A stretch of 40,458 nucleotides of DNA, from IMG/VR virus record IMGVR_UViG_3300035698_017478, positions 1 to 40,458 of that record; one strand, given 5' to 3'. The notes under the pieces were generated by a model. That model did no database searches and was not told where the DNA came from. It saw only the letters and a list, made by a program, of their open reading frames with translations. This document shows positions 3,558-40,458 of this stretch, piece after piece (position 1 is the first letter of the stretch; every line of letters begins with the position of its first letter). A program made the position numbers and the translations under genes. Source of the stretch: a virus.

Positions 3558-3577
3558 TATATCCCCACTTTTTTTAG

Positions 3578-3601
3578 TTTAGAGCAAGTTTAAATTGTCA
3601 A
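3578..3601 (-). promoter_or_regulatory. Candidate leftward promoter overlapped by 21-bp repeat
   Basis: On the minus strand TTGACA (3601-3596) matches a consensus -35 box. The 21-bp repeat (3598-3578) begins inside it and fills the spacer. No strong -10 box follows, so the promoter call is weak. The overlap with a repeated sequence is what an operator would look like. Confidence 0.35.
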
Positions 3602-4313
3602 TGAACTTTTTGCTTCCTGCTTTCATTACAAAAAGTCGCTTCTATATATCTAAATACATCTTATAGAAAAATAAACTCTTGTCAATAAAATTATTGAAAA
3701 AAATGAAAAACTCAATAAAATCAATGCTTTTTTCTACTACTTATTTTTAAGATAATCTAAAATAAAAAAGTGAAAAAGTGCTTATATAACTAATTGATAC
3801 TCAATGCTTTATATACTCAATACAGCTCACTTATCGTGCTATAACTTACTGATACTCAAGAGCTTATGTACTATGATTATATATAATCTCTATACATTTA
3901 CAAGTCAATGATTATCAATGTTTTATAGATAAAAATAAATTCTTTACTGTATACTCAAAAATAAAACTGATTTCTAAATAACATAATAATAATAATAGCG
4001 TATTATATCACAATGCTATTTAATAAGCTGTAAATGCACTATACAGAGCTTGGAATTAGTATAGTAATTAATTCTACTGTATGATTAAATAAATTGCTTA
4101 AATAGACTGTTATGTATTATTAAATGATACTAAATAAAATGTAAGTAAAATGAAAGTTAATTGACGATTGAATGATAAGAGAGTGAAGCAGTATTGACGA
4201 GAGAGTGAATAATAAATTAATTTTAATTATAGTCTCTCTCTAAAATAAGCTGTTTTTAATTGCAGTCTATTTATAGACTACATAATTATTAATCATTGAG
4301 TACCAATGACTTA
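3602..4313. other. Non-coding AT-rich control region with short repeats
   Basis: No gene is supported here on either strand. ATACTCAA occurs four times in 162 bases (3797, 3813, 3852, 3951). GAGAGTGAA occurs twice close together near 4178-4211. The region separates the leftward small genes from the rightward tRNA and virion genes, so it probably holds divergent promoters and perhaps a replication origin with iteron-like sites. That role is inferred from position and repeats alone. Confidence 0.4.
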
Positions 4314-4416
4314 TATAACGAATATGGACGGGGGGTTGAATTTAGCATATCTTAGCACAGCGACAAAGGACTACGACTGTATTCCTCACGCACACTGGCC
4401 AATATCCCAACGGACA
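4314..4416. other. GC-richer island in the control region
   Basis: About 100 bases, starting with a G-run (GGACGGGGGG), are visibly richer in G and C than the very AT-rich surroundings. A short open frame runs through it and into the pyrimidine tract, but it has no ribosome site, and the membrane-like end of that frame is simply the translated pyrimidine tract. In AT-rich phages such islands are usually a structured RNA or a protein-binding site such as an origin or packaging site. No strong hairpin is obvious by eye. Confidence 0.35.
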
Positions 4417-4489
4417 GTTTTCTCTCTTTTTATCTTTCTTTATCTCTTCTCTATCTTCTCTCTCTTCTCTATCTTTTTATCTTTCTTAA
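4417..4489. repeat. Polypyrimidine tract
   Basis: About 70 bases consist almost entirely of T and C with a few A, built from imperfect repeats of TATCTTT and TCTCTTC. It directly follows the GC-richer island. Such asymmetric tracts melt easily or form unusual structures and occur near replication origins, but no function is shown here. Confidence 0.5.
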
Positions 4490-4589
4490 TTACAACTTAA
4501 TTAGACAGCTTTTAAAAGCTTCGTTATAATCGTCATTAAAATAATTCAAACATCTTCCTAATCGTCATTTAAAGGGTATAGAGAGATAA

Positions 4590-4637
4590 AGACGTATATT
4601 CTTATACATACATTAGATAAGTATTTATAATACGTCT
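4590..4637. repeat. 8-bp inverted repeat
   Basis: AGACGTAT (4590-4597) is exactly inverted at 4630-4637 (ATACGTCT) with 32 AT-rich bases between. The long spacing fits a dimeric protein site or a cruciform rather than a terminator. A TTGACA box (4642-4647) follows at once, though without a good -10 box. Confidence 0.4.
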
Positions 4638-4734
4638 AGGATTGACAGTATAGTGCTAAATTTGCATTTTTGTGTAATAATAGAGTATCTCTATATATGT
4701 AGATAAAATTAAGCTTAAAAGCTAAATTTGAGAG

Positions 4735-4764
4735 TCAATTAGAATCAATTAGAATCAATTAGAG
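4735..4764. repeat. Three tandem 10-bp units
   Basis: TCAATTAGAA, TCAATTAGAA and TCAATTAGAG lie head to tail, one helical turn each. They sit about 75 bases upstream of the first 59-bp promoter repeat, a place where an activator or origin protein could bind. Confidence 0.5.
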
Positions 4765-4838
4765 TTAAAAAGAGTCAAAGAGAGATAATCGTAATTAAAG
4801 AAAGTTTTTAATTAATATATAATATATATAATAGTGAA

Positions 4839-4897
4839 ATTTATTTTTGAAATCTAGTTAACAAAACAGGGTAGGTATTACATAATATAAGTAGAGG
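4839..4897 (+). repeat. 59-bp direct repeat, copy 1, carrying a promoter
   Basis: Bases 4839-4897 are identical to 8796-8854, and both are in the same orientation. The flanks differ on both sides. The two copies frame the whole RNA/tRNA cassette. Confidence 0.95.
4858..4886 (+). promoter_or_regulatory. Sigma70-like promoter in repeat copy 1
   Basis: TTAACA (4858-4863) and CATAAT (4881-4886) each differ from consensus at one base and are separated by exactly 17 bases. Transcription would start near 4893 and run into the putative structured RNA and the tRNA array. The same boxes recur at 8815-8843. Confidence 0.65.
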
Positions 4898-5325
4898 TTA
4901 GTTGTGATTTGGTTGGTGGAGAGTTTTCATTAATATATATAACATATATAACATAATATAAGTTAGTTGGGTGAACATGCTCAATAGCCTGGAGCAAAAT
5001 CAATCTGACGTGGGGTGCAAGTCAGTTTTATTACGCAAGTAATAGAATCAAAGTTAAGGGCAACTGCTGAGACAGACTGAGAGACCATGAAAAATGAGTT
5101 CTAAAAATAAATAAGAGAACTCTTTAGATGTTTTATTGGAGAAATCTAACTTGACAAGAAATTATCAAGTTGCAAGGCGCTCTGATAATTGAAGGTATGC
5201 AAAAGTCCTTCACTACTTATATTTAATATTTTTATTTAATCTTTAAAGTCTTTATAGTTGATGTGGAAAGGGACCACCACATGAAAAACCCTATCCATTT
5301 TGATTCTAAAATAATAGTAATAACA
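4893..5325 (+). ncRNA. Putative large structured RNA upstream of the tRNA array
   Basis: There is no good open frame between the promoter and the gene at 5337. The part from about 4975 to 5290 is richer in G and C than its surroundings and has many hairpins: TGCTC/GAGCA (4978-4996), CTGAC/GTCAG (5006-5025), TATTAC-GCAA-GTAATA with a GNRA loop (5029-5044), GAGTTC/GAACTC (5096-5121), AACTTGA/TCAAGTT (5148-5171), TGAAGG/CCTTCA (5190-5212) and ATGTGG/CCACAT (5260-5281). Large ornate RNAs of the GOLLD and ROOL classes are known to lie next to phage tRNA genes, and the place and size would fit. I cannot align it to either consensus, so the class is open. Confidence 0.5.
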
Positions 5326-5336
5326 GGGAGTAAGGT

Positions 5337-5672
5337 ATGAATGAAGAGTTAATTGAAAAAGTTGAAGTTGAAGTTGAAGAAGCTGAAGAAGCTGAAAAAG
5401 TAGAAAAAGTAGAAAAAGTAGGGAAGAGTGAAGAAGGTGAAGTTGAAAAAGTTGAAAATGGTAATGTAGGTGAAGTTGAAGCTAAAAAAGGTAAAGAAAT
5501 ACCTAGAGTTAAATTTTTAATGTTTGAAGCTATTATAAGTAGTGAAGTTGATAGAGATGGTAATTTTATTATAAAGTATAAATACAGTAGAAAAGGATTT
5601 CCAATTGAAGATTTAGGAAAATCTATGAGAGCATTTGAAGCTCATATATTACAAGACATAAAAGAAATTTAA
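5337..5672 (+). CDS. Small protein with acidic repeat region (111 aa)
   Basis: GGGAG and AAGG precede the ATG. Residues 1-55 are built from Glu/Val/Lys repeats (VEKVEKVEKV type), which would form a charged helix or stay disordered. Residues 56-111 look like a small folded domain (FLMFEAIISSEVDRDGNF). At the DNA level the repeats are in-frame triplet runs of GAA, GTT and AAA, suggesting growth by slippage. It is the first protein gene in the tRNA cassette. Function unknown. Confidence 0.65.
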   Translation: MNEELIEKVEVEVEEAEEAEKVEKVEKVGKSEEGEVEKVENGNVGEVEAKKGKEIPRVKFLMFEAIISSEVDRDGNFIIKYKYSRKGFPIEDLGKSMRAFEAHILQDIKEI

Positions 5673-5684
5673 GGAAATATAAAA

Positions 5685-5807
5685 ATGAAATTAAACACTA
5701 CAATGCAGGCGAAATTATGGTGTTCGAAACCCGAACATTCATATGGTAGAAGTCTATCCTATCAAATAGATAATACCATTAGCTCGCTGGAGGTGTCTTT
5801 TACATGA
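5685..5807 (+). other. Doubtful 40-codon frame inside the attenuator-like leader
   Basis: An ATG at 5685 with AAGGA upstream opens 40 codons (begins MKLNTTMQAKLWCSKPEHSY) ending TGA at 5805-5807, which overlaps the start of the three-codon frame at 5804. Its codons (CTG, GAG, GTG, TCG, AGC) are unlike neighbouring phage genes, which prefer TTA, GAA and TCT. That favours a structured RNA over a real protein, but a leader peptide cannot be excluded. Confidence 0.3.
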
Positions 5808-5874
5808 TAAAGTAAGGGAAACAGAATTAAGACACTTACTAGAAAGCGAGCAATAACATGCTCGCTTTTTTTTT
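5782..5874 (+). promoter_or_regulatory. Attenuator-like leader with SD-led three-codon minigene
   Basis: Three segments can pair in two exclusive ways. GCTCGCT (5782-5788) can pair with AGCGAGC (5845-5851), enclosing a 9-bp helix between 5791-5799 and 5829-5837. Alternatively AGCGAGCA (5845-5852) pairs with TGCTCGCT (5859-5866) to form the terminator. The inner helix hides a strong ribosome site, GGAGGTG (5789-5795), which is 8 bases before ATG ATA AAG TAA (5804-5815). So the antiterminated form masks the site and the terminated form frees it. Downstream lie the tRNA genes. The structure is drawn by eye. Confidence 0.45.
5843..5874 (+). terminator. Rho-independent terminator upstream of the tRNA array
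   Basis: AAAGCGAGCA pairs with TGCTCGCTTT around a 6-base loop (5853-5858), followed by a run of T (5866-5874). It is the strongest intrinsic terminator in the window. Its first arm can also pair with 5782-5788, which would remove it. Confidence 0.8.
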
Positions 5875-5881
5875 ATTTTAA

Positions 5882-5967
5882 GGGAGTTTATACCGTAGGG
5901 GTAGCGGGATTGGCTGTAAACCAATTATACTTGTATTCGGGTAGTTCGACTCTATCAGCTCCCACCA
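5882..5967 (+). tRNA. tRNA-Tyr (GTA)
   Basis: Acceptor GGGAGTT/AGCTCCC, anticodon loop CTGTAAA in an ATTGG/CCAAT stem, long variable arm as expected for bacterial tRNA-Tyr, discriminator A and encoded CCA (5965-5967). It is the first tRNA after the terminator. Confidence 0.9.
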
Positions 5968-6042
5968 GGCTAGATATCCAAATGGTAAGGAAGTGAATTG
6001 CAAACTCACTATTTGTTGGTTCGATTCCAACTCTAGTCTCCA
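5968..6042 (+). tRNA. tRNA-Cys (GCA)
   Basis: Acceptor GGCTAGA/TCTAGTC, loop TTGCAAA, and discriminator T, which is the usual identity base for Cys. CCA is encoded. It begins directly after the CCA of tRNA-Tyr. Confidence 0.9.
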
Positions 6043-6129
6043 GGAAGAATGACAGAGTGGTAATGTGCCAGTTTGCTAAACTGAGTCAGGCTAATACCTA
6101 CGGAGGTTCAAATCCTTCTTCTTCCGCCA
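6043..6129 (+). tRNA. tRNA-Ser (GCT)
   Basis: Acceptor GGAAGAA/TTCTTCC, loop TTGCTAA, long variable arm (87 bases in all), discriminator G as usual for Ser, encoded CCA. No spacer from tRNA-Cys. Confidence 0.9.
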
Positions 6130-6145
6130 AAATAAGGAGTATATT

Positions 6146-6844
6146 ATGACTTTTGTAATAGGTGATATTCATGGAGCTTTTAAAGCTTTAAAACAATGTT
6201 TAGAGAGAAGTAACTTTAATTATACTGAAGATACTTTAATAGTATTAGGTGATGTAGTAGATGGATGGAATGAAGTACCTGAATGTATTGAAGAATTACT
6301 TAAAATAAGAAATCTTATATATGTATGGGGTAATCATGATTGGTGGTGTAATAAATGGTTTAAGGAAGGTTGGTCACATCCTATGTGGGAAGAACAAGGT
6401 GGTAGAGCTACTAAAGAAGCTTATATTAAACAAGGTGATTTGTTAGTAAAACATAGAGATTTCTTTGATAGAGCAATAAAATATTATTTAGTAGATAATA
6501 AGTTATTTGTACATGGGGGAATATCTCCAGCTATAATTCAAAGACCAATAGAGAAACAAGAACTAAATGATTTAATGTGGGATAGAGAATTATTTAGAGT
6601 TGCAAGATTTAAACATTATAGAGATTCTAGTTATAAATATGCTGATTATGATGTCATATTTATAGGTCATACTTCTACTGAAGGAACAAATTCTGAACAA
6701 CCTATTAAAGTTTGTAATGTATGGAATATAGACCAAGGTGCAGGATGGACTGGTAAACTAACTATAATGAATATTAATACTGAAGAGTATTGTCAAAGCG
6801 ATAATGTACTGAAATTGTATCCAAATGTAAAGGGAAGATATTAA
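6146..6844 (+). CDS. Calcineurin-like metallophosphatase (232 aa)
   Basis: AAGGAG precedes the ATG at 6146. All core motifs of PPP-type/lambda-phosphatase-like metallophosphoesterases are present: GDIHG (6-10), GDVVDG (35-40), GNHD (62-65), VHGG (122-125) and GHT (174-176). These residues bind two metal ions and remove phosphate from proteins or small nucleotides. The length (232 aa) is close to lambda phosphatase (221 aa). The substrate cannot be told from sequence; protein phosphate, Ap4A-type nucleotides or RNA-end phosphates are all possible. It sits between tRNA genes, 16 bases after tRNA-Ser and 3 bases before the next one, so it is presumably on the same transcript. The codons match the phage genes. 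Confidence 0.88.
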   Translation: MTFVIGDIHGAFKALKQCLERSNFNYTEDTLIVLGDVVDGWNEVPECIEELLKIRNLIYVWGNHDWWCNKWFKEGWSHPMWEEQGGRATKEAYIKQGDLLVKHRDFFDRAIKYYLVDNKLFVHGGISPAIIQRPIEKQELNDLMWDRELFRVARFKHYRDSSYKYADYDVIFIGHTSTEGTNSEQPIKVCNVWNIDQGAGWTGKLTIMNINTEEYCQSDNVLKLYPNVKGRY

Positions 6845-6847
6845 TTA

Positions 6848-6937
6848 GGAAGGTCAATCAGATTGGCGACTGAACTTGTTTTGAAAACAAGCGAGCTGTA
6901 AAAGGCCTTGGGAGTTCAACTCTCTCACCTTCCGCCA
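6848..6937 (+). tRNA. tRNA-Ser (TGA)
   Basis: Acceptor GGAAGGT/ACCTTCC, loop TTTGAAA in a CTTGT/ACAAG stem, long variable arm, discriminator G, encoded CCA. Confidence 0.9.
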
Positions 6938-7012
6938 GCATCTTAAGTGTTTTAGGCGGCATTTCTGACTTCCAATCAGAGGGAACGAGTTCGATTCTCG
7001 TAAGATGCTCCA
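6938..7012 (+). tRNA. tRNA-Gly (TCC)
   Basis: Acceptor GCATCTT/AAGATGC, loop CTTCCAA in a TCTGA/TCAGA stem, discriminator T, encoded CCA, no spacer on either side. Confidence 0.9.
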
Positions 7013-7086
7013 GCCTGTGTAGTATAGTGGCATTATACCTGTTTTGTAATCAGGTGACGGGGGTTCGACTCCTCTCATGGGCTCCA
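7013..7086 (+). tRNA. tRNA-Thr (TGT)
   Basis: Acceptor GCCTGTG/CATGGGC with two G-T pairs, loop TTTGTAA; the last anticodon-stem pair is T-T. Discriminator T, encoded CCA. Confidence 0.85.
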
Positions 7087-7178
7087 GCCAAAGTAGCACA
7101 ATGGCAGTGCAGCGGTCTTATAAACCGTAATCGCCAGATTAGCGAGTGATGATGGTTCGAATCCATCCTTTGGTACCA
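7087..7178 (+). tRNA. tRNA with anticodon TAT (Ile?) and long variable arm
   Basis: Acceptor GCCAAAG/CTTTGGT, D arm GCAC/GTGC of class I type, anticodon stem GCGGT/ACCGT with loop CTTATAA (anticodon TAT, codon ATA), T arm GATGG/CCATC, discriminator A and CCA. Between anticodon and T arms lie about 22 bases that can form TCGC/GCGA, as in Leu, Ser or Tyr tRNAs. At 92 bases it is the longest tRNA here. A Leu-like body with one changed anticodon base (TAA to TAT) is one reading; an Ile tRNA with an inserted arm is another. Confidence 0.75.
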
Positions 7179-7252
7179 AGTCAGGTAGCTCAATGATAGA
7201 GCAATCGACTGATAATCGATAGACGAAAGTTCAACTCTTTCTCTGACTACCA
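7179..7252 (+). tRNA. tRNA-Ile (GAT)
   Basis: Acceptor AGTCAGG/TCTGACT, D stem GCTC/GAGC, loop CTGATAA in ATCGA/TCGAT, discriminator A, encoded CCA. It reads ATT and ATC. Confidence 0.9.
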
Positions 7253-7326
7253 GAATTCATAGTTTAATGGCAGAATAGGAGACTCTTAATCTCTTGATGA
7301 AGGTTCGAATCCTTCTGAGTTCACCA
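7253..7326 (+). tRNA. tRNA-Lys (CTT)
   Basis: Acceptor GAATTCA/TGAGTTC, loop CTCTTAA in GGAGA/TCTCT, discriminator A, encoded CCA. Confidence 0.88.
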
Positions 7327-7400
7327 GGGTTGTTAATGTAAAGACCGCATGAAAGACTTTTAATCTTTTCGAATTGGTTTGATTCCAATACAACCTACCA
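7327..7400 (+). tRNA. tRNA-Lys (TTT)
   Basis: Acceptor GGGTTGT/ACAACCT, loop CTTTTAA in AAAGA/TCTTT, discriminator A, encoded CCA. Confidence 0.88.
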
Positions 7401-7475
7401 GGCAATATAGCTTAATAGTAGAGTACTTCCCTGTCAAGGAAGGGGGTGCGAGTGCAAGTCTCGCTATTGTCGCCA
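7401..7475 (+). tRNA. tRNA-Asp (GTC)
   Basis: Acceptor GGCAATA/TATTGTC, loop CTGTCAA in CTTCC/GGAAG, discriminator G as usual for Asp, encoded CCA. Confidence 0.9.
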
Positions 7476-7551
7476 TGCGGGTGGCTGGGATTGGTATCCC
7501 GATTTGTCTCATAAGCAAATGACGAGAGTTCGATTCTCTTGCCCGCTTCCA
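7476..7551 (+). tRNA. tRNA-Met-type (CAT), irregular
   Basis: Loop CTCATAA gives anticodon CAT. In the zero-spacing frame the first base is T and faces T at position 72, so the top pair is missing, a feature of initiator tRNAs. However, the three G-C pairs of an initiator anticodon stem are absent (stem TTTGT/GCAAA), and the conserved T8 is not in place. It could be initiator, elongator, or an Ile tRNA whose C34 is modified to read ATA. Confidence 0.75.
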
Positions 7552-7625
7552 GGAGCTATGGTGTAGTGATAGCACGTTTGACTTTCTATCAGACAGTACG
7601 GGTTTGATTCCCGTTAGCTCTTCCA
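7552..7625 (+). tRNA. tRNA-Arg (TCT), first copy
   Basis: Acceptor GGAGCTA/TAGCTCT, loop CTTTCTA in TTTGA/TCAGA, discriminator T, encoded CCA. It reads AGA, the preferred Arg codon in this window. Confidence 0.87.
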
Positions 7626-7700
7626 GGTAAATGTAGTGTAATGGATGCATAATTGACTGTGACTCAATTAGTGTGAGTTCAATTCTCACCATTTACCCCA
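7626..7700 (+). tRNA. tRNA-His (GTG)
   Basis: Acceptor GTAAATG/CATTTAC with an extra G at 7626 facing discriminator C at 7697, the G-1:C73 pair that marks tRNA-His. Loop CTGTGAC in ATTGA/TCAAT, encoded CCA. Confidence 0.92.
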
Positions 7701-7776
7701 TGCTAGGTAGCTCAGGTAGTAGAGCGGGAGTTTGAAAAACTCTGTGTGAGAGGTGCAAGTCCTTTCCTAGCAACCA
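7701..7776 (+). tRNA. tRNA-Phe (GAA)
   Basis: Acceptor TGCTAGG/CCTAGCA, D stem GCTC/GAGC, loop TTGAAAA in GGAGT/ACTCT, discriminator A, encoded CCA. Confidence 0.9.
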
Positions 7777-7852
7777 CAGTGAGTAGGCCAGTTGGTAGGT
7801 CGCTTGGTTTGGAACCAAGAGGACGGAGGTTCGAGTCCTCCCTCGCTGACCA
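7777..7852 (+). tRNA. tRNA-Pro (TGG)
   Basis: Acceptor CAGTGAG/CTCGCTG, loop TTTGGAA in CTTGG/CCAAG, T arm GGAGG-TTCGAGT-CCTCC, discriminator A, encoded CCA. Confidence 0.92.
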
Positions 7853-7881
7853 TAAAATATACTTAAAAAAGGAGGTGTAAA

Positions 7882-8091
7882 ATGAAAGTAACAAGAACAG
7901 AAAAATTCGGAGTATTCACTATTGTAGAAGTACAAGATGAAAGTGGAAAGAAGGCTGTTGGTATTTCAAAGCGTTCTAGATTAGATTCTAAGAATGATGA
8001 TTTAGGTACTTCAATAGCTACTGGTAGAGCAAAAAAAGCTTTATCTCGTAAACTACAAAGAAAAAGTGTACAAAACGTGTATATGGGATAA
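7882..8091 (+). CDS. Small basic hypothetical protein (69 aa)
   Basis: A perfect AAAGGAGGTG site precedes the ATG at 7882. The first half looks like a small beta-sheet (FGVFTIVEVQDESGKKAVGI); the second half (residues 48-65) is very basic (GRAKKALSRKLQRKS) and probably helical. The basic tail and its place inside a tRNA cluster would suit RNA binding, but no family is recognised. It starts 29 bases after tRNA-Pro and ends 5 bases before tRNA-Arg(ACG). Confidence 0.75.
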   Translation: MKVTRTEKFGVFTIVEVQDESGKKAVGISKRSRLDSKNDDLGTSIATGRAKKALSRKLQRKSVQNVYMG

Positions 8092-8096
8092 TTCCA

Positions 8097-8167
8097 ATTC
8101 TCGTGGTATATAGGATGTGCCCAAGGCTACGAACCTTGAGAAGCTAGTTCGAGTCTAGCCGAGAATA
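8097..8167 (+). tRNA. tRNA-Arg (ACG), no encoded CCA
   Basis: Acceptor ATTCTCG/CGAGAAT, loop CTACGAA in CAAGG/CCTTG, T arm GCTAG/CTAGC, discriminator A. It is the only tRNA here followed by TTA instead of CCA, so CCA would have to be added by the host enzyme. Anticodon ACG normally needs A-to-I editing by the host to read CGN. Confidence 0.88.
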
Positions 8168-8170
8168 TTA

Positions 8171-8246
8171 ACCCTCTTAGTTCAGTGGATAGAGCAACCG
8201 CCTTCTAAGCGGTAAGTCGTTGGTTCGAATCCAACAGAGGGTACCA
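8171..8246 (+). tRNA. tRNA-Arg (TCT), second copy
   Basis: Acceptor ACCCTCT/AGAGGGT, loop CTTCTAA in ACCGC/GCGGT, T arm TTGG-TTCGAAT-CCAA, discriminator A, encoded CCA. Its sequence differs clearly from the other TCT tRNA at 7552, so it is not a recent duplicate. Confidence 0.9.
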
Positions 8247-8324
8247 GCAGGTTTGTGTATTTTCCTAAGCTCGAAACTATGGGAGTTAGATACCCTAAAA
8301 AGACTAATAAAAAAATACTCATCA
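8247..8324 (+). other. tRNA-sized slot without a tRNA
   Basis: These 78 bases fill exactly the space of one tRNA between two tRNAs but do not fold as one: no T arm is found, and only a poor acceptor (GTGTATT/AATACTC) followed by ATCA can be drawn. The central hairpin, GGG-AGTTAGATA-CCC, carries TTAGATACCC, the same ten bases as the 790 loop of 16S rRNA. It may be a decayed tRNA, a small RNA or chance. Confidence 0.35.
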
Positions 8325-8400
8325 GCGAATGTAGGCCAACGGCAGAGTCAATGGTTTTAGAAACCATTCAGTGAGGGTTCGAATCCTTTCATTCGCACCA
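8325..8400 (+). tRNA. tRNA with anticodon TAG (Leu?) and short variable loop
   Basis: Acceptor GCGAATG/CATTCGC, anticodon stem ATGGT/ACCAT with loop TTTAGAA (anticodon TAG, codons CTN), discriminator A and CCA. The D arm (3-bp stem, loop with GGCAGA) resembles tRNA-Leu, yet the variable loop is only 5 bases and the whole is 76 bases, whereas bacterial tRNA-Leu has a long arm. Anticodon and body class therefore disagree. Confidence 0.8.
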
Positions 8401-8474
8401 GGAGAATTAGTGTAATGGCAACACACTAGTGTTACATACTAGTAATAAAGGTTCAAATCCTTTATTCTCTACCA
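8401..8474 (+). tRNA. tRNA-Val (TAC)
   Basis: Acceptor GGAGAAT/ATTCTCT, loop GTTACAT in CTAGT/ACTAG, discriminator A, encoded CCA. Confidence 0.88.
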
Positions 8475-8548
8475 TCCCGTATCTTTTAATGGTAGGAAGG
8501 CTGGCTGTTAACCAGTTAATGGTGGTTCGAATCCATCTGCGGGAGCCA
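8475..8548 (+). tRNA. tRNA-Asn (GTT)
   Basis: Acceptor TCCCGTA/TGCGGGA, loop CTGTTAA in a CTGG/CCAG stem, discriminator G as usual for Asn, encoded CCA. Confidence 0.9.
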
Positions 8549-8624
8549 GGGCTTGTAGCTCTAATGGCAGAGCAACTGCCTTGCAAGCAGAAGGGTGAGA
8601 GTTCGAATCTCTCCTAGTCCACCA
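8549..8624 (+). tRNA. tRNA-Ala (TGC)
   Basis: Acceptor GGGCTTG/CTAGTCC contains the G3-T70 wobble pair that identifies tRNA-Ala, plus one T-T mismatch at 6-67. Loop CTTGCAA in CTGC/GCAG, discriminator A, encoded CCA. Confidence 0.9.
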
Positions 8625-8698
8625 GGGGGAAAAATGTTACGGTAGCATATTTGTCTCCAAAACAAATAGACGTGGTTCAATTCCACGTTCCCCTGCCA
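8625..8698 (+). tRNA. tRNA-Trp (CCA)
   Basis: Acceptor GGGGGAA/TTCCCCT, loop CTCCAAA in TTTGT/ACAAA, discriminator G as usual for Trp, encoded CCA. TGA serves as a stop codon in this window, so the genetic code appears standard there. Confidence 0.9.
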
Positions 8699-8775
8699 AG
8701 AAGAGTAGTGTAAATAGGTGAGCACATTAAGCTTTGAACTTAATAGTATTGGTTCGAATCCAGTCTCTTCTTCCA
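8699..8775 (+). tRNA. tRNA-Gln (TTG)
   Basis: Acceptor AGAAGAG/CTCTTCT, loop CTTTGAA in TTAAG/CTTAA, discriminator T, encoded CCA. Last tRNA of the array; the second promoter repeat begins 21 bases later. Confidence 0.88.
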
Positions 8776-28148: not shown

Positions 28149-28811
28149 GTGGAAAAGCTAAAAAATTTAAAATTAATTAAAGAAATTCAAAGTAAATATG
28201 CTTTGATTAAGTTGTATCGTACAGAAGAAGGAAAATTAATGTTATGTTTAGACACTTTTATTCAATTTGTTGAAGGAGAAGATGAGGAAATATATCATAA
28301 AAATCTTACTAGACATTCTTTTGATTCTAACTCAAAGAATTTTTTAATATTGGGTGGAGGAGATGGATTTGTTTCTAGAGAAATATTTAAATATGATGTT
28401 AATGCTAATATAGATTTAGTTGATATAGATGAAGAAATGATTAGATTGTCATTATTTAACAAAGATTTATTAAAACTTAATAAAGGCAGTATGCATTTTA
28501 CTCGTAAATATATTAGTAACGCTTTTTATTGGGTTAAAAATTGTGAAAAAAAATATGATTCTATTATAGTTGATTTTCCAGATGCTAATAGTGAAGAATT
28601 AAAAAAGTTGTATACAAAAGAAATGTATGAAAATATAATAAAACTACTTAATAAAAATGGAACTGTAAGTATTCAAGCACATGATGATATAGTAGATAGT
28701 GTGTCTAAAAATATTAAAGAAATATTAGGAAATGCTAAAGTTTATAAACATAAAATGCCTTTTCTTGGAGAAGGTAATGTTGTAGTGGGGAAAAATGAGT
28801 TCAACTTATAA
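28149..28811 (+). CDS. Spermidine-synthase-like enzyme (220 aa)
   Basis: GTG start. Motifs of the aminopropyltransferase (SpeE) family are in order: IQFVEGEDEEIYHKNL (38-53, like Q-x-DEF-YHE-M), GGGDG (69-73), VDID (91-94) and IIVDFPDAN (139-147, like the D-x-x-DP loop). SpeE moves an aminopropyl group from decarboxylated SAM to putrescine. It is shorter than cellular SpeE (about 280 aa) and has EEIYHK for DEFIYHE and PDA for the usual DP, so substrate use may differ; a methyltransferase-like relative is possible. It overlaps the fibre gene by 17 bases. Confidence 0.7.
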   Translation: MEKLKNLKLIKEIQSKYALIKLYRTEEGKLMLCLDTFIQFVEGEDEEIYHKNLTRHSFDSNSKNFLILGGGDGFVSREIFKYDVNANIDLVDIDEEMIRLSLFNKDLLKLNKGSMHFTRKYISNAFYWVKNCEKKYDSIIVDFPDANSEELKKLYTKEMYENIIKLLNKNGTVSIQAHDDIVDSVSKNIKEILGNAKVYKHKMPFLGEGNVVVGKNEFNL

Positions 28812-32679: not shown

Positions 32680-34407
32680 TTGGAACATAATTTGTTTAAG
32701 CCTAAAAGTTTTGAAGAAGGAAAACACGCAGTAGTTGGAAACTGTAATAGTTTTACTATGCAAGAAAGATGGGATGCTGAAACTCCTCTTTTTGCTGATG
32801 AAATATTAAAATATTCCAAAGATACTATACTTGATTATGGTTGTGGTGTTGGTAGATTAGCTAAAGAAATTATTAAACAGAATGATAAAGTTAAAGTAAC
32901 TGGTACTGATGCTTCTGTAGAAATGTTAGAAGAAGCTAAAAAATATGTTGATAGTGATAATTTTAAAGTTTTATTACCAGAAGAATTAGAAGAAAAATTC
33001 TCTTTAATATACTGTGTTTATGTTTTACAACATGTTCCATCAATAGAACTTAGAAATATATTGATGAGAATACATAATAATTTAGAAGATGATGGAAAGT
33101 TTGTTTATTGTTCAAGTGATTATAGAATGTGTATTAGATTTGATAATCAAGGATTTTTTGATGATAGATTTTTAGGTGTAAATATTAGAGAAGAAATTTC
33201 TAGATTTTTTGAGAATCCAGTACCTTTATTTGATAAGGAAATTTTAGGTAGTAATGAAATACTTAATAGAATGATAACTGGTTATGATGGAGGATTACCT
33301 CATCCAGCTTTTGTCTATACTAAAAAGAAAATTAAAAGTTACTTTAATACTATTATTAATAAAGAGAAAGAGGAATTACAATCAGTAGAACTAAAGAAAA
33401 CAAAAAGGTCAACAAAGAATAATTTAGTGTTAATAAATAGGCTTGCTCCTGGAGATTGTTTAGTTATGACTAATGCTATTAGAGATTTACAAACAGCTCA
33501 TCCAAATAAGTATAAAGTTGAAGTTAGAACTCCTTGTCCAGAGATTTTTGCTAATAATCCTTATTTAACTAAATTAGATTATAATGAAGAAACTTATAAT
33601 GAAATAAATAGAACTTTTTCTAAAAGAAGTGGTAATATTAAAGCTGATAATAGTATTATAGAAAATGGTGATATATCTTTTATAGATATGCACTATCCTT
33701 TAATACATCAATCAGGCACTAAAGGTTCTCACTTTTCTGAGGGACATACTTTATTTTTATCAGAAGTTTTAGGTATTGATATACCACAGAAAGATTTAAG
33801 ACCACAATTATTTTTAACTCAACCAGAAAAAGATTGGGTAAATCCAGTTCATACTAAAACAGAATGTAAAGGTAAATATTGGGTAATTAATGCTGGTTCA
33901 AAAGGTGATTATACATTAAAACAATATCCTTATTATCAAGAGGTTGTAAATTTATTGAATAAAAATAATATATCAGTAGTTCAAATTGGACAAAAGAGTC
34001 ATTCTCATGTTAACTTAACAGGTACTTATGATATGTTAGGTAAAACAAATTTAAGAGAACTTTTTAGAGTTATTTATCATGCAGAAGGAGTAATTACTTG
34101 TGTTAGTTTACCAATGCATGTAGCGGCTGCTTTTAATAAGCCATGTGTAGTAGTAGCTGGAGCTAGAGAGGGTACTAGATGGGAATTATATCCAAGTCAT
34201 CAATTTTTATATGTAAATGGTTGTTTACCATGTGCTACTTATGATGGTTGTTGGAGAAGTAAAAGTGAAGAGTGTAATAATAAAATAAACAATGTTCCAA
34301 AATGTATGATGATGATAACACCAGAAGATATATATAATGCAGTAAATAGATATTATCTTGGCGAAATATTAGTAAAAGATAATGTAAGAAAGGAGATGTT
34401 AGTATGA
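32680..34407 (+). CDS. Methyltransferase-GT9 glycosyltransferase fusion (575 aa)
   Basis: TTG start with AAGGAGG 6 bases upstream. Residues 1-220 form a class I SAM methyltransferase: LDYGCGVG (51-58), TGTDASVEMLEEA and LQHVPS. Residues about 250-560 look like glycosyltransferase family 9 (heptosyltransferase-like): RLAPGDCLVMTNAIRDL (about 253-269), INAGSKGDYTLKQYP and the late VISC-type site (ITCVSLPMHVAAA), followed by the C-P-C...C...CM cluster (CLPCATYDGCW near 515, PKCMMMI near 543) typical of some GT9 proteins. It would add and methylate a sugar. The two activities in one chain suggest one glycan is both extended and capped. First gene of the decoration island. Confidence 0.75.
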   Translation: MEHNLFKPKSFEEGKHAVVGNCNSFTMQERWDAETPLFADEILKYSKDTILDYGCGVGRLAKEIIKQNDKVKVTGTDASVEMLEEAKKYVDSDNFKVLLPEELEEKFSLIYCVYVLQHVPSIELRNILMRIHNNLEDDGKFVYCSSDYRMCIRFDNQGFFDDRFLGVNIREEISRFFENPVPLFDKEILGSNEILNRMITGYDGGLPHPAFVYTKKKIKSYFNTIINKEKEELQSVELKKTKRSTKNNLVLINRLAPGDCLVMTNAIRDLQTAHPNKYKVEVRTPCPEIFANNPYLTKLDYNEETYNEINRTFSKRSGNIKADNSIIENGDISFIDMHYPLIHQSGTKGSHFSEGHTLFLSEVLGIDIPQKDLRPQLFLTQPEKDWVNPVHTKTECKGKYWVINAGSKGDYTLKQYPYYQEVVNLLNKNNISVVQIGQKSHSHVNLTGTYDMLGKTNLRELFRVIYHAEGVITCVSLPMHVAAAFNKPCVVVAGAREGTRWELYPSHQFLYVNGCLPCATYDGCWRSKSEECNNKINNVPKCMMMITPEDIYNAVNRYYLGEILVKDNVRKEMLV

Positions 34408-35087
34408 ATTCTTTAGAAAAGTTTAACTTATTAAAATCATGTTTGAAGTTTGATGCAGTTACTAACGCTTCTGTATTTAATACTTTAAGAATACTGAAGG
34501 GAGTTAATAAAGGTGATTTATATCATGAAGCTTATTTGGGTCACTATAAAAAAAGAGGAAATACCTTTGTTGATTACTATCATTTACTTTGGACTATTGG
34601 TTCTATAATAAAACCAAAACAGATTATGGAGATTGGCTGTAGAACAGGTATTTCTATTTGTCAATTATTATCTTCTTATGTTGATTCATTTCCAGAGAGA
34701 ATAATGTTATTTGATTTGTTTGCTGATGAATTTTTATCAGAAGAATTAGTAAGATTAAACTTAAAACAATTGAATATTAATTCTGAAAATATTAAGTTTA
34801 TTGTTGGTGATTCAAAAAAACAAGTACCAAGATATTTTGCAAAAAATAATCTGTTATTTGATTATATACTAGTGGATGGTGACCATAGTAGAGAAACAGC
34901 TAGAATAGATTTAGATAATGTTGTTCCAATGCTTGAAGAAGGTGGTATCATTATTTTTGATGATATTTCTCCTGATGGGTGTGGTTTAATAGATGTATGG
35001 AGTAAATTTACTGAAGATTACCAGAATGATTTTTATTTTGCTAATGATATGAATGGTAAAGGGGTAGGAATAGGAGTTAAGAAATGA
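34404..35087 (+). CDS. Class I SAM methyltransferase (227 aa)
   Basis: ATGA overlap with the preceding gene. QIMEIGCRTG (about 73-82) is the SAM-binding glycine loop, FDLFADEF gives the acidic post-strand-2 region, and LVDGDHS (about 156-162) plus IIIFDDI fit the Methyltransf_24 type. That type often acts on sugars in surface polysaccharide or macrolide synthesis. The target here is not shown. Confidence 0.75.
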   Translation: MNSLEKFNLLKSCLKFDAVTNASVFNTLRILKGVNKGDLYHEAYLGHYKKRGNTFVDYYHLLWTIGSIIKPKQIMEIGCRTGISICQLLSSYVDSFPERIMLFDLFADEFLSEELVRLNLKQLNINSENIKFIVGDSKKQVPRYFAKNNLLFDYILVDGDHSRETARIDLDNVVPMLEEGGIIIFDDISPDGCGLIDVWSKFTEDYQNDFYFANDMNGKGVGIGVKK

Positions 35088-35725
35088 TTGACCATCCAAG
35101 AGATTTAGAATATTTTGAAAAGTATCCTGAACCAGTAATGGAAGCTTTACAGAATATGCATTTTACTAATGTTAATACTACTATAACCTATTATGGACCA
35201 ATGCTTTACTATATTGCTAGAGCTATGGGTGCTGAACAAATACTAGAAATAGGTCATGCAGAAGGATATACTTCATTTTATTTAGCTAATGCTGTAAAAG
35301 ATAATGCTCAAAGATTTGGAATGGCTGGAAATAGGTATCATGGTATTGATATTGTTCAAACAGAAAAAGTTCGTAAACAGTTACAAGAGAAGAACTTGCC
35401 AGTTAATTTAGTTGAAATGGATTCAATGACTTTACCCGGAGAATTTAAAGATATAAAATTTGATATTATTTTTCAAGACGGTAATCATGATAATGAACAT
35501 GTGTTATTTGAATTAGAAACAATGTATTCTCAATTGAAGAGTAATGGTTTATGGATATTTCATGATTCAGCTGGACCCGCTGAAGAAGCTTGGCATAAAA
35601 TAATGGGAATGATTAAAGAAAAAAAATATCAATTTGAATATATAAGACTGTTAGGAATATATGGTATAAGTATTATGAGAAAAATAGAGGGAGTTGACCT
35701 TGAAAAAAGATATTGGACAAACTAA
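35084..35725 (+). CDS. Class I SAM methyltransferase (213 aa)
   Basis: ATGA overlap. QILEIGHAEG (about 52-61), HGIDIVQTEKV and FQDGNHDNEHV (about 131-141) follow the same plan as the gene before, with low direct identity, so it is a related enzyme of different specificity or an old paralogue. Likely modifies a neighbouring position of the same glycan (inference). Confidence 0.75.
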   Translation: MIDHPRDLEYFEKYPEPVMEALQNMHFTNVNTTITYYGPMLYYIARAMGAEQILEIGHAEGYTSFYLANAVKDNAQRFGMAGNRYHGIDIVQTEKVRKQLQEKNLPVNLVEMDSMTLPGEFKDIKFDIIFQDGNHDNEHVLFELETMYSQLKSNGLWIFHDSAGPAEEAWHKIMGMIKEKKYQFEYIRLLGIYGISIMRKIEGVDLEKRYWTN

Positions 35726-36278
35726 TATGATATATACAATTGGAGACAGTCATTGTTGGCATGCATGGTTAAAAGTTCCTAATGTTACAACTCAAACAAT
35801 GGGACCAATGACAATGCACAGTCTTGGTTTAAGTAAGCCTATTTTAGTAGAACATTTACCTAAAGATTCACATATTGTTTTTAGCTGGGGTGAAATAGAT
35901 TGTCGTTGTCATGTTCATAAATATCAACCTTGGAAAGAAACAATAGATATTTTAGTAAAAAACTATATTGATACTATAAGATTAAACGCAGAGATAAATA
36001 AAAATATATTGATTTATAATGTAGTTCCTCCGCCTAAGAGAAAAAATGCTCAAGAAAGTAGTAGCTTTCCGTTCTTAGGAACAGATGAAGAACGATTATC
36101 TTATGTTAAATATATGAATAAATTATTAAGTGAATCAGAGTATCCTTTTATAGATGTTTATGATAAATATTCTGAATCTGATGGATTTCTTAAGATGGAA
36201 TTAAGTGATTATCATGTTCATGTTGAAGATGAAAAATATTTAATTGAATGGATAAATAATAACAGGGAGAAATCATGA
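35700..36278 (+). CDS. SGNH/GDSL-like hydrolase (192 aa)
   Basis: I choose TTG at 35700, which has GAGGGAG 6 bases upstream; an ATG at 35727 would also keep the core. GDSH (15-18) carries the nucleophile Ser, FSWGEIDCRCH lies in the block II/III region, and the late DYHVHV supplies the Asp-His pair. SGNH enzymes add or remove acyl groups on sugars and other molecules. Among the methyl- and glycosyltransferase genes, a sugar O-acyl role is the natural guess. It overlaps the gene before by 26 bases and the next by 4. Confidence 0.65.
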   Translation: MKKDIGQTNMIYTIGDSHCWHAWLKVPNVTTQTMGPMTMHSLGLSKPILVEHLPKDSHIVFSWGEIDCRCHVHKYQPWKETIDILVKNYIDTIRLNAEINKNILIYNVVPPPKRKNAQESSSFPFLGTDEERLSYVKYMNKLLSESEYPFIDVYDKYSESDGFLKMELSDYHVHVEDEKYLIEWINNNREKS

Positions 36279-36817
36279 ATCAATCAGTTGTTATTCAGAA
36301 ATTGTTTAAAGAATATTTCAAAGATAAACTTATTACTGGAATTGAGATAGGGACTAATCGTGCTGATTTAACTCTCGCAATTCTAACAGCTATGCCTCAT
36401 AGCTTTGTATATACTATTGACCCATGGAAGCATGAGAGTGTAGATGATATGCTCCCTGGAGATGAACTATTTGAATCAGGACAACCTCAATCATATCATG
36501 ACCTAAATAGGGAACAGACTAAAAAAAGACTATTAATTCCAGAGTATGAAGATAGAGTAGAAATAATACCTTTAAAAAGTTCAGAAGCAATAGGAAGATT
36601 TACTCCAGATTCTTATGATTTTGTGTGGCTAGATGGAAATCATAGTAAAAGTGCAGTAACATCAGATTTAGAACTATATTACCCTTTAGTAAAGAAAGGT
36701 GGTATTTTTGGTGGACATGATTATTTATGTGTTCATCCATTAACTGAAATTATAAAAGAAAAGTTTGGAGATAGAATTATTACTGGTGATGATTTTACAT
36801 GGTGGGTGATTAAATGA
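36275..36817 (+). CDS. Class I SAM methyltransferase (180 aa)
   Basis: ATGA overlap. GIEIGTNRAD (22-31) binds SAM, YTIDPW follows strand 2, and WLDGNHS (118-124) with GGIFGGHDY marks the Methyltransf_24-like type. It is the shortest of the group and appears complete. Confidence 0.75.
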   Translation: MNQSVVIQKLFKEYFKDKLITGIEIGTNRADLTLAILTAMPHSFVYTIDPWKHESVDDMLPGDELFESGQPQSYHDLNREQTKKRLLIPEYEDRVEIIPLKSSEAIGRFTPDSYDFVWLDGNHSKSAVTSDLELYYPLVKKGGIFGGHDYLCVHPLTEIIKEKFGDRIITGDDFTWWVIK

Positions 36818-37908
36818 GAGAAAAATATGGATTTTTAGCACAGAGAGAAGGAAATAGAAAATTTAAAGAGTTTCCTTTTTGTAATTATACTGTTCCAATT
36901 CGTCAATTTCTACAAAGTCTAGATTTTGATATGCCTAAAATTATTAATCTTACTTATAATGGACCAGTAGTTACTATTGAAAGTGAATGGGTTGAAGGTA
37001 TAGATTTTTTACACTTACAGGATAAGAAAGAATTAACTCTTGATGACTTTTATAAATGGGGAGTTTATATGGCTAAATTACATAGTGTAAAAAATGATGA
37101 AGGACTTTTTGTAGCTTCTCATGATTTACAATATGGTAATGTCATTAGAACTGATGATGGTAAGGTAATGCTTTGTGATTGGACTAAATTATATTATACA
37201 GATTTTCCAGAGGAAGAAATAATAAGATATATTTTGTCACCTTATGCTTTTAAAATAGAACATAAAGATTCTTTTATAAAAGGATATTTAACTCAAAAAG
37301 GTATTACATTAGATGATATTATTCAAAAAACTCTTAACGCTAATTGGGATAATTATCAAGATTTATATTGTAAGGGAGTATTGTTAAGAAGAGGACCTCG
37401 TAGTAATAAAAGGCTTAAATTCTTGCCTAAAGATATGACTGGATTAAAAGTAGTAGATATAGGTTGTTCTTGTGGTATGTTGGCTAGAGAAGCTAAAAGA
37501 TTGGGAGCAAAATATGTATTAGCAATAGATAATCAACATCATACAACACATAATCTTATAGATTTAGTTTCGGTAGTGTCATATGCAGAGAGATTACATC
37601 TAGACTTTACAGCTGGTGATGCTTCAAATAGTTTATTTATAAAGAATAATTCGTTTGATGTTATATTCTTTTGTGCTGTATCTGGACATATTGGAGCGGA
37701 GAAGGAACGATTTGCATATCTTCAAATGTTAAGAACTAAGTGTAAGATAATGTATTTTGAAACTAATTTAGGTGGAAAAGAAGAACCACATAGAAAATTA
37801 TTAGAGAGAGCAGGTTTTAAAGATATAGAATGTTTAGGTGAAAGTGGAGACCCTGACCGTAATGAAAATAATCATTATACCATGTTTAAATGTAAGGGAG
37901 ACCTATAA
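36814..37908 (+). CDS. Kinase-like / methyltransferase fusion (364 aa)
   Basis: ATGA overlap. Residues 1-170 look like a protein-kinase-fold small-molecule or LPS kinase: HDLQYGN (103-109) matches the H-x-D-x(4)-N catalytic loop and CDWTK (121-125) the metal-binding Asp of a DFG-like site. Residues 210-364 are a SAM methyltransferase: VVDIGCSCG (213-221), LAIDNQ, and a late FKDIECLGESG. The N-lobe is short, so phosphate transfer needs testing. Phosphorylation and methylation of one glycan residue by one chain would fit capping of chain growth, as known in O-antigen end modification by WbdD, which also joins a kinase and a methyltransferase. Confidence 0.65.
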   Translation: MREKYGFLAQREGNRKFKEFPFCNYTVPIRQFLQSLDFDMPKIINLTYNGPVVTIESEWVEGIDFLHLQDKKELTLDDFYKWGVYMAKLHSVKNDEGLFVASHDLQYGNVIRTDDGKVMLCDWTKLYYTDFPEEEIIRYILSPYAFKIEHKDSFIKGYLTQKGITLDDIIQKTLNANWDNYQDLYCKGVLLRRGPRSNKRLKFLPKDMTGLKVVDIGCSCGMLAREAKRLGAKYVLAIDNQHHTTHNLIDLVSVVSYAERLHLDFTAGDASNSLFIKNNSFDVIFFCAVSGHIGAEKERFAYLQMLRTKCKIMYFETNLGGKEEPHRKLLERAGFKDIECLGESGDPDRNENNHYTMFKCKGDL

Positions 37909-37936
37909 TGAAACCTATAATGAAACCTATATTGAA
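37901..37936 (+). repeat. Three 12-bp tandem repeats over a start codon
   Basis: ACCTATAATGAA occurs at 37901 and 37913 and, with one change, at 37925. The first two copies each hold an ATG in the same frame, so the next gene has a duplicated start (MKPIMKPI). Confidence 0.85.
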
Positions 37937-38762
37937 AGTAAGTAAGGTAATAGAACCTTATTATCAAGAAAAGAAAATAGTTCAAGAAATTGAAGAACGA
38001 AAACCTAAGACTGTTCTAATAATATTTTGGCATGGTCTTGGAGATTTGGTAATGTTTTTAAATCTCTATGATAACTTAACAGAGCAATTTCCAGAGATTA
38101 AATTTGATTTAGCTGTTCAGAGAGGTTTATCTTTTGAAGATATAGTTCCAAATGCAGTTTTTATTGATGGAGATTATCTAGATACTTTAGAAGAAAAACC
38201 TTATGATTTAATAGCTAAAGTTCATTTTCATATGAGTGAACATCAAACTAAATTAACTAAAGGTGAATGGTGTTGTAATCATGAACTTGGAATACCTCTT
38301 GTTAATGGTCATAAATATGTTGGAGAAGGAAAAAAGAGATTAGTAGGAGTACATTTTAATATTACTTGTTTACCAGATGCATGTAAACCAGATGAAGAAA
38401 CAGCTAAAAGAATTTGGCAAGATATTATTGAAAGTGGTTATATTCCAATAGAAACTCATTTTGAACATACTTTTCATAATCCAGTTAATACTAAGTTTGA
38501 TTTTATAGATTGTAGTGTTAGAAAAGCAATGCCAAGAATAGCAAGTTTAGTTGGATTAATAAATAGTTTAGCTGGTTTTGTTGGTGTAATAAGTGGTAAT
38601 ATGCATGTTGCTCTAGCTAATTTACCAGAATCAAGAATACTTTATTTAGAGAAAGATTTAAAATTAGAATGTTTTACTAAGAAAAAAATAAGTAAAGCAT
38701 CTATTAAACCAAAAGAATATAAAGGAGAAGTAAAAAAATGGCTTCAAAATTTGCATATATAG
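37908..38762 (+). CDS. GT9-like glycosyltransferase (284 aa)
   Basis: AAGGGAG lies 7 bases before the ATG at 37908, which shares one base with the stop before. FWHGLGDLVMFLNLY (40-54) fits the N-terminal GLGD site of heptosyltransferase-like GT9 enzymes, and SGNMHVALANLPESR near the end matches the donor-binding S-x-x-x-H-x-A-A region. It is shorter than typical GT9 (about 330 aa) and may use an unusual heptose or hexose donor. Confidence 0.68.
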   Translation: MKPIMKPILKVSKVIEPYYQEKKIVQEIEERKPKTVLIIFWHGLGDLVMFLNLYDNLTEQFPEIKFDLAVQRGLSFEDIVPNAVFIDGDYLDTLEEKPYDLIAKVHFHMSEHQTKLTKGEWCCNHELGIPLVNGHKYVGEGKKRLVGVHFNITCLPDACKPDEETAKRIWQDIIESGYIPIETHFEHTFHNPVNTKFDFIDCSVRKAMPRIASLVGLINSLAGFVGVISGNMHVALANLPESRILYLEKDLKLECFTKKKISKASIKPKEYKGEVKKWLQNLHI

Positions 38763-39721
38763 TAGGTGGTGATTATAAATATATACCGGAACTTTGTGCG
38801 TTACTAAATAGTTTAAATGATGTTGGTAATAAACAGGATGTTCATTTACTTGGGATAAAATTACTGGAAGAATTTACTTCTCAATTTGATAAACTTAATT
38901 ATAAAGTAATACATCATAATATAACAGAGGAAGAATATACTGCTGCTAAAGGAATAAGTGAAATAGTATGTAGAAAAAGATACTGGTATGCTGCTGAATT
39001 TGGAAAAGATTATGATGCTGTTTGTGTATTAGATGCTGATTTAATTTTTGTTCGTAATCCTATTCAATTCTTTGTTATAGCAGAAAAAACAGGTTATATA
39101 CTTGGTCCCTGTAAAGAACAGAATAAAGTATATGATAGTCCTCATCATCAATTTAGAGGAGAATGGATAATTCCAAAAGGATACTTTAATACAAAAGATT
39201 TATGTAATTGTCCATTATTTATAGATTCTAAAAAACATGATAAAGCTTTAAGAGAGAGTTGGAATATATTTATTAATGGTTTTGATGAGATGAAAGGTAC
39301 TAATTTTAAAGCTCCTGATATGGATGCAATGAATATATGTTTTATTAAGTATTCTGGTGAAGAAAATATACTTCCTTTACCTGGAATTCAATGGTTAGGT
39401 ACTAATGAACAATTACTAAAACCTTATATTCGTGCAGTAAATAAAAGAGATGGTAAAATATGGACTGAATCTGGTATTATGTTATTTACTTTTCATGGTC
39501 AATTTTATCATAAAAAATGGAAAGAATGTCAAATAGACAATAGAGTAAGATGTGCTAGAGGATATTTGAAGTTAACTGGAGAAGCAGACAAAGCTCTTGC
39601 AGACCAAGCAAGAGGAGCAATGAATTGTCTTGATGAGTATTTTAAGAAAATGCTAAAAGGTCCAGTTACTATAGAAATGGGTCGAGATTATCGACACGAT
39701 GAAAATTGGGGGAACAAATAA
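38738..39721 (+). CDS. GT-A-fold glycosyltransferase (327 aa)
   Basis: Overlaps the gene before by 25 bases with AAGGAG upstream. VLDADLIFVRNP (97-108) has the D-x-D metal/nucleotide-sugar site of GT-A enzymes such as GT8-like proteins. Further on, FHGQFYHKKW (near 250-262) provides a late His. It would move a sugar from a UDP- or similar donor; the acceptor is unknown. Last gene of the island before the lectin. Confidence 0.65.
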   Translation: MASKFAYIVGGDYKYIPELCALLNSLNDVGNKQDVHLLGIKLLEEFTSQFDKLNYKVIHHNITEEEYTAAKGISEIVCRKRYWYAAEFGKDYDAVCVLDADLIFVRNPIQFFVIAEKTGYILGPCKEQNKVYDSPHHQFRGEWIIPKGYFNTKDLCNCPLFIDSKKHDKALRESWNIFINGFDEMKGTNFKAPDMDAMNICFIKYSGEENILPLPGIQWLGTNEQLLKPYIRAVNKRDGKIWTESGIMLFTFHGQFYHKKWKECQIDNRVRCARGYLKLTGEADKALADQARGAMNCLDEYFKKMLKGPVTIEMGRDYRHDENWGNK

Positions 39722-40458
39722 TGTCTATAGGAATTGACAGTAATACGGTATTAATGCTACATTTAGATGGGTCAGATGGAGCTACCTCTACGAGTGACTC
39801 TTCTCAATATAGCCAAACAGTATCTTCTTTTGTAGCTACTGCACAATTAGATACTGCTAATTATAAATTTTCTCCTTCCTCATTATTATTAGATGGTAAT
39901 AGTGATTATATTATAATTACTGATGCTGCAACATTAAGATTTGGTTCAGGAAGTTTTACTATAGATATGTGGGTATATACTCCACGTTCATCTGTTTATT
40001 GCTTTATATCTAAAAATGATGGTAATTCTTCTACTGAATATAATTTTAGAGTTGAATCTGATGGTGATTTATCATGGGGAACTTCTGATGCTAATTATAC
40101 TAGTAATAATGCAAGAAAAGTTGCTGCTAATACTTGGGAGCATGTTGCTGCTGTGCGAAGTGGTACTACTTTTAAAATGTATATTGGTGGTACTGAGGTA
40201 TATACTAGAACAGATTCTAACAATTATAGTACAACAACTGATATACATCTTGGTAGAAGAAATGGAGGAACAACGTGGTATTGGAATGGTTCAATAGATG
40301 AAGTAAGATTGTCTAATGTAGCAAGATGGACAAGTTCTTTTACTCCAGATACTACTCCATATACTACTAGTAGTTCTAGTTCAAGCTCTAGTAGTTCTTT
40401 TTCTAGCTCTAGTTCTTTTAGCTCAAGTTCCAGTTCATCAAGTAGTTCTTTTAGTTCT
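39721..40458 (+). CDS. LamG-like lectin protein with Ser-rich tract, cut by window edge
   Basis: ATG at 39721 shares one base with the stop before (TAATG), and GGGGGAAC lies upstream. Residues 1-215 match the concanavalin A-like (LamG type 3) fold: VLMLHLDGSDG, FTIDMWVYTP, WEHVAAVRSG, FKMYIGGTEV, WNGSIDEVRLSN and ARWTSSFTPD. Such domains bind sugars or proteins and are common in phage adhesins. From about residue 217 to the edge (246) the chain is nearly all Ser with a few Phe (SSSSFSSSSSFSSS). The frame is open at the end, so more follows outside. Confidence 0.78.
   Translation, partial: MSIGIDSNTVLMLHLDGSDGATSTSDSSQYSQTVSSFVATAQLDTANYKFSPSSLLLDGNSDYIIITDAATLRFGSGSFTIDMWVYTPRSSVYCFISKNDGNSSTEYNFRVESDGDLSWGTSDANYTSNNARKVAANTWEHVAAVRSGTTFKMYIGGTEVYTRTDSNNYSTTTDIHLGRRNGGTTWYWNGSIDEVRLSNVARWTSSFTPDTTPYTTSSSSSSSSSSFSSSSSFSSSSSSSSSSFSS

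Follow-up and report, generated by a model that had tools for sequence, protein, structure and literature searches.

Phage virion glycosylation and the glycosylation loci of serine-rich proteins are both known kinds of system. In loci of the second kind, such as those of GspB, Fap1, and PsrP, a cluster of glycosyltransferase genes adjoins the gene of a Ser-rich acceptor, a cell-wall adhesin with SxS repeats, and GlyE of the S. pneumoniae locus acts on PsrP. WbdD joins a methyltransferase domain and, behind it, a kinase domain in a single protein. Long polyserine linkers are found in marine polysaccharide-degrading bacteria. The glycosyltransferase TibC is one of the bacterial autotransporter heptosyltransferases (BAHT) and also resembles lipopolysaccharide heptosyltransferases. 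It hyperglycosylates serines (not threonine) of a repetitive secreted protein (PMC4358343). For mycobacteriophages, it has been proposed that phage-encoded glycosyltransferases decorate virion proteins (for example PMC11256854).

The locus described here would unite the two kinds, in the form of a mobile cassette of phages whose proteins bear poly-Ser tails. We came across no such union in the literature that we searched, which offered nothing relevant on phage polyserine or on this enzyme set. As in the Ser-rich repeat loci, glycosyltransferase genes adjoin a Ser-rich, in this case putative, acceptor, and the cassette includes a GT8-fold enzyme that counts GlyE among its best fold matches. 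Unlike those loci, the phage tracts are pure poly-Ser and sit on a virion rather than on the bacterial cell wall, and a Pfam scan covering part of the cassette genes showed no GtfA/GtfB or accessory Sec genes. The difference from the mycobacteriophage case lies in a mobile, many-gene cassette that includes methyltransferases, occurs on unrelated backbones, is linked to poly-Ser, and has no sequence match to named phages. Unrelated uncultured phages share a mobile set of sugar-attaching and methylating enzymes, found almost only together with poly-Ser virion proteins, which suggests that these phages may coat their own virions with sugar.

RESULTS

The window, meaning the whole stretch of DNA analyzed, is the entire IMG/VR record IMGVR_UViG_3300035698_017478 (40,458 bases), and the end of the contig cuts off its last gene. 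Eight co-directional genes with overlaps of a few bases lie at 32680 to 39721, followed by a LamG protein with a serine tract (Table 1). The open reading frame listing bore out the original prediction of an overlapping eight-gene island in its reading frames, order, and short overlaps, with two listed starts that are probably too early. The SGNH-like gene more likely begins near 35727, given that its homologs begin MIYTIGDSH, and the LamG gene probably begins near 39721 (MSIGIDS); with these later starts, some of the overlaps shrink or vanish. The arrangement is not a product of chance, given that identical families occur in identical order on other contigs. Elsewhere in the window, 24 closely packed tRNA genes at 5882 to 8775 cover nearly all amino acids and have a GC content above that of the rest of the contig, and a spermidine-synthase-like protein (28149 to 28811; Pfam 2e-25) is encoded among the tail and fiber genes, directly before an 880-aa fiber-like gene.

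Table 1. Cassette genes, the adjoining LamG gene, and its serine tract in the window
Feature	Position	Strand	Basis or content
MT-GT9 fusion, 575 aa	32680..34407	+	N-terminal SAM methyltransferase, C-terminal GT9
MT24a, Methyltransf_24 enzyme	34404..35087	+	Pfam 7e-15; homologs in other cassettes
MT24b, Methyltransf_24 enzyme	35084..35725	+	Pfam 4e-16; homologs in other cassettes
SGNH/GDSL-like protein	35727..36278 (listed ORF start TTG 35694; homologs suggest ATG 35727)	+	Motifs
MT24c, Methyltransf_24 enzyme	36275..36817	+	Pfam 2e-14; homologs in other cassettes
Kinase-like N-terminal domain fused to SAM methyltransferase	36814..37908	+	HxDxxxxN-like motif; methyltransferase by Pfam
Second glycosyltransferase, GT9-like, GT-B fold	37908..38762	+	AlphaFold model pLDDT 90; closest TibC, WaaF, WaaC, 3tov
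GT-A glycosyltransferase, GT8-like fold, LDAD motif	38738..39721	+	AlphaFold model pLDDT 85
LamG protein with C-terminal serine tract	39721..40458 (listed ORF start TTG 39706)	+	Laminin_G_3 3e-24; cut by contig end
Serine tract, proposed glycan acceptor	40390..40458 (begins near 40369)	+	Mixed Ser codons

The methyltransferases predicted from the sequence were all confirmed by Pfam, with a methyltransferase domain in gene 1 (Methyltransf_23, 9e-14), Methyltransf_24 in genes 2, 3, and 5, and a further methyltransferase domain in gene 6. The first gene belongs to the GT9 family by its profile (5e-14, 52.7 bits against a curated cut-off of 22) and opens the cassette in most relatives, some of which lack its methyltransferase part; in one relative (L003), MT24a is fused to GT9. 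Two GT9-like enzymes had been proposed. The second, the 37908 protein, has no Pfam match and is backed instead by an AlphaFold model and structure searches, along with a profile match to the GT9 structure 3tov (E=1e-3). TibC, which has the same GT9-like GT-B fold, was the best structural match of the model at Z 12.9, with a poor global superposition (TM 0.27-0.34) and a good match mainly in the C-terminal lobe. The two have no sequence-level match, and the phage enzyme differs further in being accompanied by other glycosyltransferases and methyltransferases. We also considered the four-Cys iron finger of TibC, Cys-x2-Cys-x15-Cys-x11-Cys (PMC4358343), as proof of kinship and rejected it, given that the four invariant Cys of the phage GT9 include C-x5-C rather than C-x2-C and that ordinary GT9s have four Cys too.

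The proposed GT-A enzyme was upheld at the level of fold only. The 38738 protein has no significant Pfam match, but its model has a GT8-type GT-A fold with a DxD motif (L98 D99 A100 D101, invariant in the family) and matched WbbM, GlyE, glycogenin, and LgtC at Z 17-19 in structure searches. Both models were built by AlphaFold from 12-member alignments. For the SGNH hydrolase, the assignment is plausible but weak: GDSH and D...H are conserved in 7 members, and Lipase_GDSL_2 matches 4 of the 7 (best 3e-4), with the window protein itself at just 0.24. The kinase-like domain is likewise a plausible but weak call, with the motif HDLQYGN and a conserved Asp further on; APH matched one of five family members (7e-4), and no kinase family matched the window protein. 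A likeness to WbdD, in that kinase-like and methyltransferase domains share a protein, had been noted, and we abandoned this analogy on account of the reversed domain order, the weak match to kinases, and the presence of the fusion in only part of the cassettes.

Scanning IMG/VR with the GT-A family recovered 25 records, and the family was absent from the GTDB genomes in the scan. No named phage matched GT-A, the kinase-methyltransferase fusion, or the 9618 head gene, and two Synechococcus phages gave just weak methyltransferase matches; scans with the kinase-methyltransferase fusion alone or the 24341 protein alone returned no relatives. Where whole records were read, the ends of the cassette were constant, with MT-GT9 first and the GT-A and GT9-like genes last in either order. 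The middle was variable and could hold NeuB, a B12-radical SAM enzyme, an epimerase, a SPASM radical SAM protein, or LicD, and domains fused in some records were split in others. The presence of NeuB, epimerase, and LicD in these variants indicates glycan synthesis.

Four virion gene sets (backbones), with no detectable homology between sets, carry the cassette: the first in the window and L007/G013; the second in G001, G002, G007, G010, and G014; the third in G004, G006, G008, G009, and G011; and the fourth in G005. The window and G013 (L052) have related head genes, and the cassette lies behind the fiber genes in the former and behind the head genes in the latter, which shows that it relocates even within one backbone. 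The weight that the original prediction had given to the position between fiber genes and a LamG lectin was not supported, given that the cassettes of relatives sit behind a head gene or near the terminase and that their tracts extend proteins with F5/8C, DUF2460, tail-protein (phrog_290), or unknown domains rather than LamG. In three further loci (L171 13588, L174 13572, and L177 13930), we observed a diverged cassette with its GT9 domain in a protein of ~910 aa and, in L171, a GT4 match; this cassette occupies the same place behind a poly-Ser head-adjacent gene, indicating that the slot is filled by alternative glycan sets.

The window shows a single tract, and no more than about 30 residues of it (27 Ser among the 30 codons from 40369 to 40458); a poly-Ser pattern had zero matches in 100 shuffles. 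Poly-Ser tracts were present in 12 of the 13 cassette records read, window included, the exception being a 16.5-kb fragment; there were up to five poly-Ser proteins, and more than 1,100 serines, in one cassette record. The tracts sit on tail, head-adjacent, and fiber-like proteins, and in the third backbone the poly-Ser protein adjoins the major head gene. Their codons mix AGY and TCN, which disfavors DNA slippage as the sole origin, and the interruptions are mostly F, L, I, or Y, often 9 to 15 apart.

The strict poly-Ser pattern is rare, with only 106 stretches in 2.9 million IMG/VR contigs, and the 80 poly-Ser loci listed include at least 15 of the 25 GT-A records. Because the cassette records are related to one another and often fragmentary, they amount to few independent events, about four backbones. 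As a lineage control, we ran two scans, one using the capsid from one of the backbones and the other using the terminase from a different one, both blind to poly-Ser and GT9. A poly-Ser protein lay beside the capsid gene in all 22 capsid-scan loci that were long enough, and all 14 of the long loci had a GT9/MT gene behind the poly-Ser gene, although the 22 are related rather than independent events and the independent support is nearer four backbones. The terminase scan gave a like result, and the distant outgroups L198/L199 and L224 had neither a poly-Ser neighbor nor the GT9/MT gene. When we checked whether the cassette genes of relatives are scattered and unlinked, they were found to stay together and to stay with poly-Ser proteins. 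Among further poly-Ser records, GT9 was found in 7 of 50 and GT-A in 3 of 50; the fragmentary state of many of these records accounts for part of this shortfall, but several long records also had no GT9, GT2, or Methyltransf_24. Given that most poly-Ser phage records, some of them long, are without the cassette, poly-Ser must have other uses or be served by other enzymes. A 94,133-base IMG/VR virus record with poly-Ser, MT24, and GT2 equals a Zixibacteria MAG contig in length and pattern (L065 and L268), and is either a virus in a Zixibacteria bin or a misclassified contig.

In GTDB, the same poly-Ser pattern occurs mainly in Cellvibrionaceae and similar bacteria. Marine polysaccharide degraders with polyserine linkers share long poly-Ser and its DNA pattern with the phages but differ in that, in 39 of the 40 poly-Ser genomes, nothing strongly matched the GT9 branch of the phages. 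A rumen Alphaproteobacteria MAG with a small genome (SIG52; L229, L241, L248, L283, and L304) encodes many proteins with poly-Ser of 111-287 residues. The GT9 branch of the MT-GT9 protein is also present in Planctomycetota, at six loci in 5 of 392 genomes, where the enzymes scored 304-326 bits on the phage profile compared to 32 or fewer for other bacterial GT9s. A Ser-dense protein, defined as at least half Ser over a window of 30-40 residues, lay within about 13 kb at all six loci compared to 1 of 40 control regions (20 kb each, from three of the same genomes), a contrast to be read as an indication and not as a calibrated probability, given that three of the clusters are closely related to one another and that some of the flanks examined exceeded a control region in length. 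The control regions were used in place of a W/S-degenerate poly-Ser pattern, which was uninformative on the 392 genomes because it matched high-GC coding sequence. Three of the six partners are real poly-Ser or (SSSSSP)n. One further observation concerns the L358 cluster (1409-7363), which encodes a phage-type GT9, a SPASM protein, a mannosyltransferase-like protein, and a poly-Ser protein with a Tat-like N-terminal signal, and looks like a peptide-modification locus.

DISCUSSION

We think it rather probable that the island is a phage-borne cassette for protein O-glycosylation that acts mainly on long poly-Ser tracts of the virion proteins of the phage itself. The original prediction had placed a glycan on the virion, perhaps on the Ser tract, or on the host surface; co-occurrence and linkage uphold a glycan cassette tied to serine tracts, and the host surface gained no positive support. 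We infer the acceptor, the identity of the sugars, the sequence of the steps, and the benefit, which could be protection, adhesion, or escape from recognition. Protein serine as acceptor is the simplest reading of linkage and fold, given the precedent of the TibC fold, the absence of membrane polysaccharide machinery from the window cassette, and the Ser-dense partner in phages and bacteria alike. In the mechanism we propose, a GT9-type enzyme (MT-GT9, the second GT9-like protein, or both) would place the first sugar on serines, as TibC does on autotransporters, and the GT8-fold enzyme would then extend it. The methyltransferases and the SGNH-like enzyme, and elsewhere NeuB, epimerase, LicD, or radical-SAM enzymes, may tailor or cap the glycan, and head and tail would end up covered by a dense layer of sugar that is type-specific.

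It is unlikely, in our view, that the cassette instead remodels the surface polysaccharide of the host, in superinfection exclusion or serotype conversion, with poly-Ser traveling along as flexible linkers. In favor of this reading, GT9 enzymes typically belong with lipopolysaccharide cores, WaaC and WaaF are among the structure matches, and poly-Ser exists without the cassette and serves as a linker in bacterial proteins (PMC6821194). Against this, Pfam and hydropathy revealed no flippase, polymerase, lipid-carrier transferase, or clear membrane protein in the window cassette, and the single segment above the hydropathy threshold is a helix/strand in the 37908 model. A host-surface role would also leave unexplained why, in both phages and Planctomycetota, Ser-dense proteins are so constantly linked to it.

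The tracts could alternatively be spacers that hold lectin and other domains off the particle, with virion proteins glycosylated outside poly-Ser. Such a role agrees with poly-Ser often connecting folded domains (F5/8C, LamG, protease) and with the linker function accepted for it in bacterial enzymes (PMC6821194), but many tracts are free C-terminal tails of up to ~900 residues with nothing folded beyond, and the Planctomycetota partners have Ser-density rather than a domain in common; we consider this reading quite improbable. The chance that the cassette acts on phage DNA or on a small molecule (a hypermodified base, RiPP, or lipid) seems slight, given that the scanned cassette genes include no nucleotide-modification family and that NeuB and LicD are glycan genes, even though some members carry radical SAM and kinase-like genes and a SPASM protein lies beside a Planctomycetota poly-Ser gene.

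Returning to serine glycosylation of the virion, a broader proposal seems to us evenly balanced: that this is one mobile system, shared by unrelated virions and with a Planctomycetota counterpart, in which poly-Ser tails on head and tail proteins become glycan brushes that are dense, capped by methyl groups, and type-specific, in effect a mucin coat for the phage served by a GT9 branch dedicated to poly-Ser.

In phages, virion glycosylation is known from few cases, with acceptors that are mostly unclear. The genomic analysis presented here names an enzyme set together with a very simple candidate acceptor sequence, which makes the proposal testable with just a few genes and a poly-Ser peptide made by synthesis. 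Should the proposal hold, it would provide a portable means of glycosylating poly-Ser, would account for the long poly-Ser tails of phage virions, and would reveal capsule-like gene swapping at work on virus particles.
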